DNA from: Spirochaetales bacterium
GTDB taxonomy: Bacteria; Spirochaetota; Spirochaetia; Treponematales; Treponemataceae
DNA: 49,347 bases
Assembly: GCA_003246335.1 (NCBI GenBank)
Contig: QKAR01000150.1
Location: 1-49,347, forward strand
Direction of reading: 5' to 3'
Shown: positions 43,327 to 47,855 of the stretch, piece after piece
Layout: the number at the start of each line of letters is the position of its first letter
How positions within the stretch are numbered: the stretch's first letter is position 1
Made by a program: the position numbers and the translations under genes
Notes under the pieces: generated by a model
Seen by the model: only the letters and a program-made list of their open reading frames with translations
What the model was told of the DNA's origin: nothing
The model's database searches: none

Positions 43327-44333
43327 ACCGCGCTCCCCTTCCGCGCCGTTCGGCGGCGCTCCCGAGGCGCCGAGGGAGACAGCGCAGGCGAGGCCGGCAA
43401 ATTCGGGTCGCATATTACCGAAAGGGAACCGTTGAGGCACTCGATCGATACGACGCCCTCGAGGGAGGAAAGGATTTCCCCGTCGATGGCGCACGCGATT
43501 CCGGTAGATGGAGCCGAGATCGAGAGACTTTTTCCCCGAGTCGTCAGCAATCCGCGCGTTTTTGATCGATCACCGCAGGCTCTACGGGCCATCAGCGAAA
43601 GCATTTTCCCGCGTGACAGGGGAATCGTCGAAGCGCGCACGTCGAAAAACCCATCGAGCGTGTCGGCGTCCGGCGCGACCACGAAAGCGCCGTTTTGGCG
43701 AGGGCCGTTCAGCACGGACACGTATTGCGTCTCGCAGGTCGTTTGGCGACCATCGATTGAAAGGCCCACCGATTCGGGGCGCGGATAGGAAACGAAGGTT
43801 TCGAGAGTACCAAAAAAGCGGGGAAGCGAACCGCGGAGACGGCGATAGTGACGCTCATTATTCGCAAGGACGGCGCCGACGCCAAAAACGACCGAGTTGC
43901 CGAAATACCGTCCCTGAGGAAAAACATCCCCGGAAACGAACCCAACGTCGAAGGGGAAAACGCGACCGGCGCGCAGGACCCTGCAGGCGTCATCGATATT
44001 CGACGGTATTCCCATGGCGAAAGCGAAATCGTTTCTCCGCCCAAACGGCAAAACGGAAAGAACCGGGGTTGGCGCGCACTCGTTTTTTTTCGAGCGCATG
44101 AGCCCGTTTATGATTTCATTGCAGGTCCCGTCGCCGCCGGACGCGACGATCGCGGTATACCCCCGAGAACCGGCGTTACGCGCGATTTCCACCGCGTGTC
44201 CGGCGCGCTCGGTCAGTACGACCTCATAATGAAGGGAAAGTTCATCGAATTTTTTCGTCACGGCCGGTAACTGATGCAGAGCTAAACCCCTTCCCGCTAC
44301 AGGATTAACCACTAACACGATTTTATAATGCAT
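43323..44333 (-). CDS. Diacylglycerol/sphingosine kinase-like lipid kinase
   Basis: A 336-residue protein of the DgkB/YegS family that phosphorylates a lipid such as diacylglycerol. Motifs: VVNPVAGRG at the N terminus, VASGGDGTCNEIINGL (ATP-binding GGDGT), VLPFGRRNDFAFAMG in place of the usual GTGNDFA, and FGVGAVL. The C-terminal beta-sandwich ends in a Ser/Pro/Arg-rich tail (SPSAPRERRRTARKG). A promoter (44353-44382) and GGAG site precede the ATG. Confidence 0.88.
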   Translation of the reverse strand: MHYKIVLVVNPVAGRGLALHQLPAVTKKFDELSLHYEVVLTERAGHAVEIARNAGSRGYTAIVASGGDGTCNEIINGLMRSKKNECAPTPVLSVLPFGRRNDFAFAMGIPSNIDDACRVLRAGRVFPFDVGFVSGDVFPQGRYFGNSVVFGVGAVLANNERHYRRLRGSLPRFFGTLETFVSYPRPESVGLSIDGRQTTCETQYVSVLNGPRQNGAFVVAPDADTLDGFFDVRASTIPLSRGKMLSLMARRACGDRSKTRGLLTTRGKSLSISAPSTGIACAIDGEILSSLEGVVSIECLNGSLSVICDPNLPASPALSPSAPRERRRTARKGSAV

Positions 44334-44352: not shown

Positions 44353-44382
44353 AGTATACGGGGTTTTTTTGAGAGGTGTCAA
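44353..44382 (-). promoter_or_regulatory. Promoter of the lipid kinase / HAD unit
   Basis: Minus-strand TTGACA (44382-44377) and TATACT (44358-44353) with an 18-base spacer, 19 bases before the ATG at 44333. Confidence 0.6.
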
Positions 44383-44439: not shown

Positions 44440-45726
44440 CTACTTTTTATGCCGTCGGTCGAGTTCGTTCAAGACGTCTTGCCAGGAAACACCCTCTCGA
44501 TGCATCAAAACGTTAATAAAATAGAGCAAATCGGCCGTTTCCCATATCACTTCGTCGCGGCCGTCCGCCTCGACGAGCTCCTCGGACTCTTCCTCGATTT
44601 TCTCCCGCACGCGCTCTGGAGTGAGCGTCGCGGTGTAGGAGCCGGGGCGCGGATTCGCGAACCGGTCGGAAATGACCGAGGCGAGGTACGGAAGGCTATA
44701 GGGACGGTCTTGAGTAGTCTGGAAGCAGGTCCAGGCGCCGGTGTGGCAGGTCGGTCCTTTCGGGCGTACCGTCGCGAGCACGGTGTCGCGGTCGCAGTCG
44801 ACGCGCAGGCGAACGACCTCGAGCGTGTTTCCCGAGGATTCGCCCTTCGTCCAAAGCTTTTCGCGCGTGCGGCTCCAAAACGTCAAAAGCCCCGACGAGA
44901 ACGTTTTCGCGAACGCCTCTTTATTCGCGTAACCGACCATTAAGACCTCGCCGGTTTCCGCCTGCGCGACGACGGGCACGAGATCGACTTTCGACCAATC
45001 GAGGCAGGAAACGAACGCGTCCGCGAGGCCGATTTTCCCGGTATACAGGGCCATGCCGAGCTGGACGTCGCAGCCGAGCCGCTCGAGAGCGATCACTTCC
45101 TCCAACGTCGAGACTCCGCCGGCCACGACAAGGCGACATTGTACCGCCGCGCGCAGGCGTTTCACGAGATCCATGTCGATTCCGGTCATCGTGCCTTCCC
45201 GCTCCACGCAGGTAAACAAGAGCTCCGAGCAATACGGCTCGACGGCCGTTGCGCCCTCGATCACGTCGATTCCCGCGCTTTCAGTCCAGCCCTTCACGGC
45301 GATTTTCCCGTCGCGGGCGTCTACCGACACGATGAGGCGTTCCTTGCCGACGGCTTGCGCGAAACTTTCGAGGAAGGCGGTATTGACGCCCGGCGCGCCA
45401 TCGGGAAGCGTAAAGGCGGCCGAACCGACAATCACTTTTTCGGCGCCGAGCGAAAGCAGTTCTTTCGCCTTTTTCGCGTCGCGTATTCCGCCGCCCACGC
45501 GGACGCTCCCCTTGCGGAGCAGGGATTTCAGAAGGGCGGTATTCGCCGTCGTCCCGTCGCTCTTAACGTTGCGCAACGCCTGGTCAAGATCGATGACCGC
45601 GACCTCGCCGAATTTGTCGAACTCCGCGATGAGTCCGTCGGGATCGTCTCGCTCGAGGACGAGGTCCTTTCCCTGGCGGAGCTGAACCACTTTACCGTCT
45701 TTAAGGTCGATGGAAGAGATTATCAT
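44440..45726 (-). CDS. HisA-HisI-HisE three-activity fusion
   Basis: A 428-residue enzyme. Residues 1-240 are HisA (ProFAR isomerase), a TIM barrel with catalytic D8 in SIDLKDG, the second phosphate half VGGGIRDAKKAKEL and VAGGVSTLEEVIAL. Residues about 245-340 are HisI (phosphoribosyl-AMP cyclohydrolase) with the metal motif VDCDRDTVL (D310, C311, D312, D314) and CHTGAWTCF (C327, C334). Residues about 343-428 are HisE (phosphoribosyl-ATP pyrophosphatase) with EEESEELVEADGRDEVIWETADLLY. It thus covers steps two to four of histidine synthesis. HisIE fusions are common, but with HisA in front is unusual. It overlaps hisB by four bases. HisF/HisH are not in the window. Confidence 0.93.
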   Translation of the reverse strand: MIISSIDLKDGKVVQLRQGKDLVLERDDPDGLIAEFDKFGEVAVIDLDQALRNVKSDGTTANTALLKSLLRKGSVRVGGGIRDAKKAKELLSLGAEKVIVGSAAFTLPDGAPGVNTAFLESFAQAVGKERLIVSVDARDGKIAVKGWTESAGIDVIEGATAVEPYCSELLFTCVEREGTMTGIDMDLVKRLRAAVQCRLVVAGGVSTLEEVIALERLGCDVQLGMALYTGKIGLADAFVSCLDWSKVDLVPVVAQAETGEVLMVGYANKEAFAKTFSSGLLTFWSRTREKLWTKGESSGNTLEVVRLRVDCDRDTVLATVRPKGPTCHTGAWTCFQTTQDRPYSLPYLASVISDRFANPRPGSYTATLTPERVREKIEEESEELVEADGRDEVIWETADLLYFINVLMHREGVSWQDVLNELDRRHKK

Positions 45727-46340
45727 TTCGTCAACGTTCCTTTCGTGCTGGGGATGGCGCCGGCCGCGCGCGGGTCAATGGCGACCGCCGCGCGCAGCGC
45801 GCGCGCCGTTGCCTTAAAAATGGCCTCGATTTTATGGTGATCGCTCCGGCCCCGGAGTACGTCGATGTGCAGGTTGCATTTCGCGCCGGACGCGAACCCT
45901 TGCCAGAAATCCTCGACCGTGTCGGTCTGGAACGCCGACGAGGGCTCTCCGCCCGCGACGAGGGGGACGCCGGAAACCGCCGACTCGCAGACGAGATAGG
46001 GCCTGCCGCCGAAGTCCACGGCGGACCGCGCGAGCGTCTCGTCCATCGGGTATACGAAAAATCCCGCGCGGAAAATTCCCGCCCGGTCGCCAAGCGCGCG
46101 ATCGAACGCCTGCCCGAGGGCGATTCCCGTATCCTCGACGAGATGGTGCTGATCGACCTCTAGGTCGCCCGAAAGCGAGCCCGAAAGGTCGAAGAGCCCG
46201 TGCTTGCAAAATGCGGCGAGCATGTGGCCGAGGAAACCGATGGGGCAAGTGACGCCGCAAGTCCCCGTCCCGTCAAGATTGAGGGAGAGGGAGATTTGAG
46301 TCTCGCCCGTCACCCGTTCTACCGTCGCGATTCTACTCAT
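45723..46340 (-). CDS. hisB: Imidazoleglycerol-phosphate dehydratase
   Basis: A 205-residue metal-dependent enzyme for the sixth step of histidine synthesis. Internal repeat motifs are DQHHLVEDTGIALGQA and RSDHHKIEAIFKATARAL, plus FLGHMLAAFCKHG, where most homologues have FLDHML, and VDFGGRPY. It lacks the histidinol phosphatase domain of E. coli HisB, so a separate phosphatase is needed (the HAD genes of this window are candidates only by fold). AAAGGA precedes the start; the stop overlaps the hisA fusion start. Confidence 0.93.
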   Translation of the reverse strand: MSRIATVERVTGETQISLSLNLDGTGTCGVTCPIGFLGHMLAAFCKHGLFDLSGSLSGDLEVDQHHLVEDTGIALGQAFDRALGDRAGIFRAGFFVYPMDETLARSAVDFGGRPYLVCESAVSGVPLVAGGEPSSAFQTDTVEDFWQGFASGAKCNLHIDVLRGRSDHHKIEAIFKATARALRAAVAIDPRAAGAIPSTKGTLTK

Positions 46341-46384: not shown

Positions 46385-47239
46385 TTACATCATGACCTTT
46401 CGGAGTTCGTATTCGATGATGTCGGTCGCGCCGAGAGCCTTCAGCTTCGGCATGAGGTTCGGCACCTCGCTTTTCTTGACGACGGTCTTTACCGCGTAGC
46501 CGTCGTCGCCGTACAGCGGCGCGACGGTCGGGCTCTTCATCGACGGGATTCCGGCGACGAGCTCGGGGAACCGAGCCTTCGACACGTTCATCTCGAGCAT
46601 GACGCGACTGCGGGCGGCCAAAGCCGCCTCGAACAGCATTTTAAGCTCTTGGATTTTTTTCGCCTTCTGCGGGTCGGCGAGCGCGCCCTTCGAGGCGAAC
46701 ATGCGCGTAGAGCTTTGCATGATGGTGTCAACGATGCGGAGGCCGTTTTCCTGAAGCGTGCGCCCCGTCGCGGTGTTGTCGATGATCATGTCGGCATCGT
46801 CCGGGGGAAAGACCTCGGTCGCGCCGTACGTTCGGACGATGAGATAATTAAGCTTCTGCTCTTTCAGCCATTTCTCGGCGTTGTGCACGTATTCCGTCGC
46901 GACGATCATGCGCTTGCTCCGCAGGAGCGCGTCGTCGATCTCGTTCGGCACGGCCGCGACGATGCGGACTTTATCGAAGCCGAGATCGAGTATCTCGACG
47001 ACGTCCGCCTCGGTCTCGCGAATCCAGTCGATGCCCGTGAACCCGACGTCGTGGGCGCCAAGCTCAAGCAATTTGCCGATGTTCTGCGGCTTCATGACTT
47101 TCGCCTCAAGATCGTCTTGATTGACGGTCGGGCGATAGGCGCGCTCGGGAAGGTAAATCCCGATTCCCGCCTCGGCGAAAAGGGCGGCGACGCTGTCGTA
47201 AATGCGGCCCTTCGGCAATAAAATCTTGAGTTTGTCCAT
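46385..47239 (-). CDS. hisG: ATP phosphoribosyltransferase, long form
   Basis: A 284-residue enzyme for the first, rate-setting step of histidine synthesis (ATP + PRPP to phosphoribosyl-ATP). Motifs are LKILLPKGRIYDSVAALFAEAG, DVGFTGIDWIRE, the PRPP loop near DADMIIDNTATGRTL, and the C-terminal ACT-like regulatory domain (about 210-284) that binds histidine in the long form, so it does not need HisZ. The ATG at 47239 follows GGAGG at six bases. Expression is preceded by a His attenuator. Confidence 0.95.
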   Translation of the reverse strand: MDKLKILLPKGRIYDSVAALFAEAGIGIYLPERAYRPTVNQDDLEAKVMKPQNIGKLLELGAHDVGFTGIDWIRETEADVVEILDLGFDKVRIVAAVPNEIDDALLRSKRMIVATEYVHNAEKWLKEQKLNYLIVRTYGATEVFPPDDADMIIDNTATGRTLQENGLRIVDTIMQSSTRMFASKGALADPQKAKKIQELKMLFEAALAARSRVMLEMNVSKARFPELVAGIPSMKSPTVAPLYGDDGYAVKTVVKKSEVPNLMPKLKALGATDIIEYELRKVMM

Positions 47240-47275
47240 CTTATCCTCCAAAACGTTCGTTCTTAGTATCGGCAG

Positions 47276-47314
47276 AAAAAAAAAGCCGCTTGAAACCCGG
47301 AGGGTTTCAGCGGC
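47276..47314 (-). terminator. Attenuator terminator of the his operon
   Basis: On the minus strand GCCGCTGAAACCC (47314-47302) pairs with GGGTTTCAAGCGGC (47298-47285; one bulged A), followed by nine T (47284-47276). It lies between the leader-peptide stop and hisG. The 3' segment of an alternative fold, GGTTGAGC around 47351-47344, can pair in part with GCTGAAACC of the terminator, which would serve as antiterminator. That pairing is inference. Confidence 0.88.
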
Positions 47315-47345
47315 CGTAAACTACTTCATAAACGCCACCAACTGC

Positions 47346-47411
47346 TCAACCGGGAATTTTGAACGGGCTCGAGTGGTGATGGTGATGAAAACGCGCGACA
47401 AAGGTAAACAT
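47346..47411 (-). CDS. hisL: His operon leader peptide with five consecutive His codons
   Basis: A 21-residue open frame starting at the ATG at 47411 and ending with TGA at 47346. It begins MFTFVARF, then reads CAT CAC CAT CAC CAC (His5, 47387-47373), and ends SSPFKIPG. It lies between a strong promoter and an intrinsic terminator upstream of hisG, the classic plan of enteric HisL attenuation: when charged His-tRNA is scarce the ribosome stalls on the His codons and an antiterminator can form. The ATG is only eight bases after the -10 and has no Shine-Dalgarno, so the mRNA is probably leaderless. Found by reading, as it is too short for most gene callers. Confidence 0.9.
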   Translation of the reverse strand: MFTFVARFHHHHHSSPFKIPG

Positions 47412-47419
47412 CTTACGGG

Positions 47420-47448
47420 ATTTAACCATGAATCAACCGAGGTGTCAA
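47420..47448 (-). promoter_or_regulatory. His operon promoter
   Basis: Minus-strand consensus TTGACA (47448-47443), exactly 17 bases, then TTAAAT (47425-47420), eight bases before the leader-peptide ATG. It lies right after the stop of the upstream membrane-protein gene. Confidence 0.85.
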
Positions 47449-47456
47449 GGCAAGGG

Positions 47457-47855
47457 TCACGGGCGATCGGTCGGTTTTTCGCCGTTGGCGTCTTTCTCGG
47501 AATCCGATGACGTCTCCGTCGCCGCGGGGGCGGAGGGATCGCGAGGTCCGTCGGCGGTTCCGTCCGCCTCGATAGCCCCCTCCGCGCCCGAATCGTCCAC
47601 GGACGCGACGCGCGCCTCTTCCGCCTCAAGATCCTCGTTTCGCGCCGCGGCGGCCTCTTCCTTGCCGAGTTTGCGCGACCACATCCAAAGGACTAATGCC
47701 AAAAAGAAAACGGCGTTGGTCCCTTTCTGGAGCTTCGCGTCGTCGGTTACGAAATGGAAAATCGCGTTAACGATCCCAAATACGAGCAACCCGATGGCGA
47801 GGGTCAAAACGATATACATAACGCGCTTAGAGGTAAGCTTTGGAAAGTTTTTCAA
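47457..47855 (-). CDS. Small membrane protein with acidic tail
   Basis: A 132-residue protein with two membrane helices (about 12-36 and 45-60), a short basic loop (WSRKLGKEE), and a long Glu/Asp/Ala/Thr-rich disordered C-terminal tail (NEDLEAEEARVASVDD onwards). No known domain recognised. It overlaps the phosphoglycolate-phosphatase-like stop by four bases (ATGA) and is followed at once by the his promoter. Confidence 0.7.
   Translation of the reverse strand: MKNFPKLTSKRVMYIVLTLAIGLLVFGIVNAIFHFVTDDAKLQKGTNAVFFLALVLWMWSRKLGKEEAAAARNEDLEAEEARVASVDDSGAEGAIEADGTADGPRDPSAPAATETSSDSEKDANGEKPTDRP

Follow-up and report, generated by a model that had tools for sequence, protein, structure and literature searches.

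The window analyzed here, a stretch of 49,347 nucleotides of spirochaete DNA, very probably carries on its minus strand a ribosome-mediated attenuator of the his operon, with a leader peptide that would be read from a leaderless mRNA (a 5′ UTR of 0 to about 2 nt). Leaderless-peptide his attenuators of this kind are most likely widespread in Spirochaetia. Control by ribosome stalling had been proposed by an earlier reading of this DNA, made from the sequence alone (the sequence-only reading), and it is supported as the best reading by a His run, a terminator and a promoter geometry that recur in relatives.

The leader and the his genes in the window

The elements of the proposed attenuator and the genes that follow it are listed below in the order in which RNA polymerase would meet them.

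47443–47448, minus strand: −35 hexamer TTGACA (read from the sequence; TTGA[CT] spacing in relatives)
47420–47425, minus strand: −10-like hexamer TTAAAT, weak, without A at position 2 (read from the sequence)
47346–47411, minus strand: leader peptide ORF MFTFVARFHHHHHSSPFKIPG, 21 codons, ATG at 47411, stop TGA at 47348–47346
47373–47387, minus strand: five His codons CAT CAC CAT CAC CAC, the putative sensor, belonging to segment 1 of the 1:2 pairing
47334–47341, minus strand: segment 2, TTGGTGGC, predicted to pair with the His codons when no ribosome is present, and with the 5′ arm of the terminator in the antiterminator (folding)
47307–47314, minus strand: segment 3, GCCGCTGA, the piece of the terminator 5′ arm taken by the predicted antiterminator (folding)
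47284–47315, minus strand: intrinsic terminator hairpin, 32 nt, 14 pairs, one bulge, −22.1 kcal/mol (folding and relatives)
47276–47284, minus strand: run of nine Ts (read from the sequence)
47245–47249, minus strand: GGAGG, Shine-Dalgarno of hisG (read from the sequence; SD-like 4-mers in relatives)
46385–47239, minus strand: hisG, long form, ATP phosphoribosyltransferase, the presumed regulated gene (TIGR00070 and C-terminal TIGR03455)
45723–46340, minus strand: hisB, imidazoleglycerol-phosphate dehydratase (profile match)
44440–45726, minus strand: hisA-hisI-hisE fusion, one 428-aa protein (PF00977, PF01502, PF01503)

A spacer of 17 nt separates TTGACA from TTAAAT, which in turn lies 8 nt from the leader ATG; at the other end, hisG follows the T-run after only 36 nt. 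Re-reading the sequence confirms the order given before, that is, promoter, frame with five His codons, stop, stem, T-run, GGAGG and hisG, all on the minus strand. The TTGACA and the 17-nt spacing also stand, but to call both promoter hexamers consensus was to overstate the −10. Indeed, a consensus promoter scan of the window does not list the leader promoter, because TTAAAT has no A at its second position. As expected of an attenuator, the biosynthetic genes are preceded by a short frame with consecutive codons for their end product, and the leader RNA is more stable than dinucleotide shuffles (z −2.36).

The hisA-hisI-hisE fusion shares 4 nt with the end of hisB, and locus L003 has at the same place an ORF of equal length and near-identical start. 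Immediately past the his genes there is a lipid-kinase-like gene (TIGR00147) with its ATG at 44333, and the promoter scan reports a promoter-like TTGACA-18-TATACT at 44382–44353 (minus strand), ending 20 nt 5′ of that ATG. Between the terminator and the hisG Shine-Dalgarno, at about 47272–47267 (minus strand) and 33 nt 5′ of hisG, we also observe a CCGAT. It is found 33–40 nt 5′ of hisG in the window and in six of ten close relatives (L004–L007, L009 and L011). Overall, only 9 of the 80 regions have a CCGATA at most 90 nt from hisG.

Occurrence of the leader in relatives

Among the best 80 of 200 matches, the closest relatives of this hisG are from Treponema and Spirochaetales MAGs (89% identity), and a His leader is present 5′ of hisG in 43 of these 80 loci. 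Most of the 43 leaders were picked by rule; seven, which start with GTG or have fewer His codons, were picked by hand. No leader is found in 36 of the same 80 loci, and one further match, L045, is doubtful. Two isolates, Brucepastera parasyntrophica RmG11 (L010) and Breznakiella homolactica RmG30 (L054), are among the carriers. The frame of the leader stays open through the hairpin in L060 and L067.

A family search reports hisG in 308 of 392 genomes of the phylum and in 118 of 146 genomes of the order. Further upstream regions were taken from 60 genomes (for L194, 400 nt only) and from 23 of the 30 loci listed from the order search, leaving out the 30 loci listed from the phylum search; 20 genomes of f12, a family of the same class, were added later. 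An automatic rule, requiring at least three His in six codons and an in-frame ATG, finds 67 distinct leaders in 164 regions, and 87 with the 20 added f12 genomes, whose leaders were not de-duplicated. At least five family groups of spirochaetes are represented among the 87.

Counted by family, and admitting also GTG starts and two-His ORFs at the right spacing, leaders are present in 10/10 regions of f2, 8/8 of f4, 25/25 of f12 and 12/32 of f3, in 3/12 further regions of f1 (the window's own family), and in 0/16 single representatives of other families. Since the layout is found again in 43 of the 80 related hisG loci and in further genomes, it is more than a chance arrangement. The sequence-only reading would have been contradicted by a lack of conservation in relatives; we find instead that the His run, the terminator and the promoter geometry are kept, with 36 of 80 loci having no leader.

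The leader start codon and the promoter

In 82 of the 87 leaders, TTGA[CT] is found 34–40 nt (observed 35–40) 5′ of the in-frame leader ATG. Eleven other 7-nt distance windows hold it in only 2–11 of the 87 leaders each, and when the 60 nt upstream are shuffled 300 times, the 34–40 range is occupied in a mean of 13.8 and a maximum of 18 leaders. The window together with its 43 related leaders behaves in the same way, with TTGA[CT] 35–39 nt upstream in 43 of 44, the remaining one being cut by the contig end. The spacing is constant across at least five family groups although the surrounding sequence diverges.

If the spacer is 17 nt long, an ATG 35 nt from TTGA[CT] falls at +1. In the window the distance is 37 nt, which predicts 0 to about 2 nt before the leader ATG. 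As 82 of 87 leaders fall in the 34–40 range, an ATG at the predicted start of the transcript, or close to it, would be the general case.

Sequence logos of 65 leaders, rows that were themselves selected by the TTGA[CT] spacing, show A as the sixth base in 82% and C as the base before in 72%. The −10 region is T/A-rich, there is no G-rich tract 5′ of the ATG, and position +4 is A in 86% (but not in the window).

We define an SD-like 4-mer as GGAG, GAGG or AGGA within −20 to −4. In the 36 loci where both starts were compared, the window among them, every hisG has such a 4-mer before it and none of the leaders does. Among all 65 aligned leaders, only L167, L174 and L187 have one. A leaderless message is expected to lack a Shine-Dalgarno before its start codon, and that is what these leaders look like. 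The promoter geometry predicts a leaderless leader mRNA, and the earlier suspicion of one gains strong support from the spacing together with the Shine-Dalgarno contrast.

A survey of 63 starts around hisG is indecisive: ten have the motif at 33–38 nt, nine of these ten without an SD-like 4-mer, but nine others have it at 27–32 nt, and two genes are counted twice. As a side observation, L002, L003 and L011 carry on the minus strand an ORF of about 440–500 aa divergent from hisG, which by eye we take to be acetylglutamate kinase/synthase-like. A TTGAC[AT] lies 34–38 nt before its ATG, which has no SD-like 4-mer, so that this ORF may also be leaderless. A search of the same genome for the TTGA[CT] spacing with a short ORF gave no convincing leader in nine loci with leuA-like, trpE-like, pheA-like and homoserine dehydrogenase genes; the flanks covered were about 1.5 kb per match, shorter where a contig ended, and may not reach the starts of the operons.

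Exceptions within one genus

Five leaders fall outside the 34–40 rule. One is L074, cut by the end of its contig; the other four, L185, L221, L223 and L225, all belong to genus g51 of f12. In L185, L221 and L223, TTGAC is 57–65 nt upstream, and the ATG is preceded by an SD-like motif at the rather long distance of 14–18 nt. In L225, TTGAC is 49 nt from the inner ATG and 28 nt from the middle ATG, with an SD-like motif 12–13 nt before the inner one. L214, also of g51, has the leaderless spacing. That is, within this genus, where the promoter-like site is more distant an SD-like motif appears, and leaders of both start types keep the His run and the T-run hairpin. These exceptions suggest that the TTGA[CT] spacing does reflect the kind of translation start. 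Having leaderless and Shine-Dalgarno-led attenuators in one genus would provide a natural set for questions about the timing of translation versus transcription.

Could the window simply have an ordinary his attenuator with a true 5′ UTR, transcribed from an unseen promoter further upstream and translated from a weak SD or independently of one, with an incidental TTGACA spacing? We consider this improbable, given that the spacing persists in 82 of 87 leaders and at least five family groups despite diverging surroundings, that the logo preferences for A (82%) and C (72%) go beyond the TTGA[CT] by which the rows were chosen, and that none of 36 leaders has an SD-like 4-mer where hisG has one. 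The weakness of the −10 in the window does speak for an ordinary 5′ UTR, as do the four g51 relatives, in which TTGAC is further away and an SD-like motif is present.

Terminator and predicted antiterminator

Between the leader ORF and the first gene, where an attenuator should have an intrinsic terminator, a T-run hairpin is found in 62 of the 65 leaders. We find no such hairpin in L174, L177 and L178 among these 65, and the hairpins of L181, L184, L186 and L187 are long and less certain. The evolutionary signal supports the hairpin: in an alignment of the window with ten close relatives, all six basal pairs form in 11/11 sequences, and three of the six have changed on both sides in a compensatory way, above shuffled and slid controls.

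The main predicted antiterminator helix pairs TTGGTGGC (47341–47334) with GCCGCTGA (47314–47307). The sequence-only reading had proposed GGTTGAGC:GCTGAAACC, which by duplex and state folding is not the preferred helix; its GGTT:AACC is retained in the best duplex, and the rest is not.

We folded the window RNA with and without the His segment covered, as the sequence-only reading had suggested, assuming a ribosome footprint of 12 nt downstream of an A-site His codon and of 10 nt downstream of the stop. The probability of 2:3 pairing when the polymerase is just past segment 3 (early P(2:3)) is 0.003 without a ribosome. It is 0.98 when the first His codon occupies the A site, 0.97 for the third and 0.65 for the fifth, and it drops to 0 once the ribosome is at the stop, which is the expected switch. 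For the full-length RNA at equilibrium, the terminator is favored even in the stalled state (0.79–0.997), so that the antiterminator must act kinetically.

How general is this switch? For 60 loci (two more were skipped for geometry), which are related and hence not statistically independent, the mean sequestration of segment 3 is 0.74 in the stalled state; shuffling the spacers lowers it to 0.56, and it is 0.38 with the ribosome at the stop and 0.59 without a ribosome. The stalled state exceeds the stop state by 0.2 in 44 of the 60 loci and the no-ribosome state in 19, with both in 10. By this cruder measure the states of the window differ little (0.48 without a ribosome, 0.58 stalled, 0.33 at the stop). 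Over 59 loci, antiterminator duplexes are on average more stable than their shuffles (mean z −0.80), with p < 0.05 in 11. The antiterminator of the window taken alone is not better than shuffles (duplex z −0.72; sequestration 0.58 vs. 0.63), and the 11-sequence alignment shows no covariation of the 2:3 helix above shuffles. Support across relatives for the antiterminator switch is thus mixed. In the folding models, the stalled and stop states are supported across relatives; a protective role for 1:2 pairing finds support in the window but not in general.

It is very unlikely that a T-box, a riboswitch or an RNA-binding protein governs this terminator, with the His ORF being secondary. Such a regulator would fit the conserved element 3′ of the leader stop, where the GTG core of segment 2 is invariant in the window and ten relatives. 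Yet no Rfam family reaches its gathering score anywhere in the window, RF00514 (His_leader) and the T-box models included, and every leader counted has His codons, although these were the search criterion. Restricting the Rfam search to 47200–47500 and allowing E-values up to 10 gives five matches, none of them RF00514 and all far below their gathering scores; among them, a Trp_leader match at E-value 8 is at chance level. Least credible of all is that the hairpin terminates an upstream gene, the His run being due to chance and hisG being transcribed from elsewhere: the ORF at 47855–47457 does read in the same direction (with no family match), but relatives have the leader, the spacing and the terminator in combination, and the 36 nt between T-run and hisG contain no promoter listed by the scan, which admittedly also misses the leader promoter.

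A proposed ribosome-mediated switch on a leaderless message

Returning to the ribosome-mediated attenuator, the layout with its conservation, the spacing, the missing Shine-Dalgarno, the terminator and the computed folds let us infer where the transcript begins, that the peptide is translated, and that ribosomes stall and polymerase reads through, in the following way. RNA polymerase would start at the leader ATG or at an adjoining base, leaving no room for the usual ribosome landing site, and the ribosome would initiate on the 5′ AUG without a Shine-Dalgarno. With charged tRNA-His plentiful, the ribosome would reach the stop and cover segment 2, and the terminator would form before hisG. A ribosome stalled on the His codons would cover segment 1 instead, TTGGTGGC would pair with GCCGCTGA in the terminator 5′ arm, and transcription would continue. 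In the case of no translation, the His codons would pair with segment 2, and the terminator would form.

We can go one step further, tentatively, with a proposal that we would sooner doubt than believe: leaderless initiation may have been selected as a functional component of the switch and may be the ancestral state of his attenuators in Spirochaetia, with some members of one genus having later acquired a Shine-Dalgarno start while keeping the attenuator. If true, the ribosome would load as the 5′ AUG leaves the polymerase, which would time translation relative to transcription without a Shine-Dalgarno, and his expression would also be tied to conditions that favor leaderless translation.

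Comparison with known systems

Histidine attenuation is a textbook switch, best known from enteric bacteria. The enteric hisL has a leader peptide with a run of His codons, 1:2, 2:3 and 3:4 pairings, an intrinsic terminator, and hisG as the first gene of the operon. The window shares the His-run peptide, the intrinsic terminator, the hisG-first operon and, as predicted by folding, the alternative pairings; it differs in its lineage and in that the spirochaete leader ATG is at the predicted transcript start, with no Shine-Dalgarno. The best reading is of a mechanism like that of enteric hisL, in a family that is not the Rfam His_leader, as that model has no match. The window would gain annotation of a his leader that the Rfam model misses. 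An older survey (Vitreschak, 2004) is said to have covered proteobacterial attenuators.

For Firmicutes, an excerpt of PMC9413887 describes candidate his attenuators with three to five consecutive His codons in the leader peptide, and his operons with a terminator and an antiterminator upstream, in a phylum where RF00514 finds nothing. The likeness is in the short His-run leader, the terminator and the antiterminator, which in the window is a predicted one; the difference is in the phylum and in the leaderless start, which that excerpt does not mention.

Leaderless leader peptides have precedents too. In Streptomyces lividans, according to an excerpt of PMC8079986, leaderless transcripts are common (17%) and the leader peptides leuL1, leuL2, trpL1, trpL2, ilvL, metL and thrL are leaderless. 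As predicted for the window, the leader peptide of an amino-acid attenuator is transcribed without a 5′ UTR; the organism belongs to the Actinobacteria, and no His leader is among those the excerpt names. The trpL attenuator transcript of Sinorhizobium meliloti likewise starts with the leader peptide ATG, as stated in part of PMC7298713, for tryptophan and in an alphaproteobacterium. The leaderless start had been put forward as a departure from the enteric system; it would indeed be one, but leaderless leader peptides are already reported for Actinobacteria and Sinorhizobium.

According to an excerpt of PMC3160421, leaderless genes occur in 6 of 18 Spirochaetes genomes, with a mean share of 3.9% in these six, and because leaderless genes are such a minority there, the near-fixed geometry of the his leaders is notable. 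An excerpt of PMC8632094 has Spirochaetes only within a genome list. Both leaderless leader peptides and attenuators with a His leader have been described in other bacteria; searches of open-licence papers gave no report of a his leader in spirochaetes, nor of the two features combined there. What emerges appears to be a widely conserved spirochaete his attenuation, with the leader start codon at the predicted transcript start.
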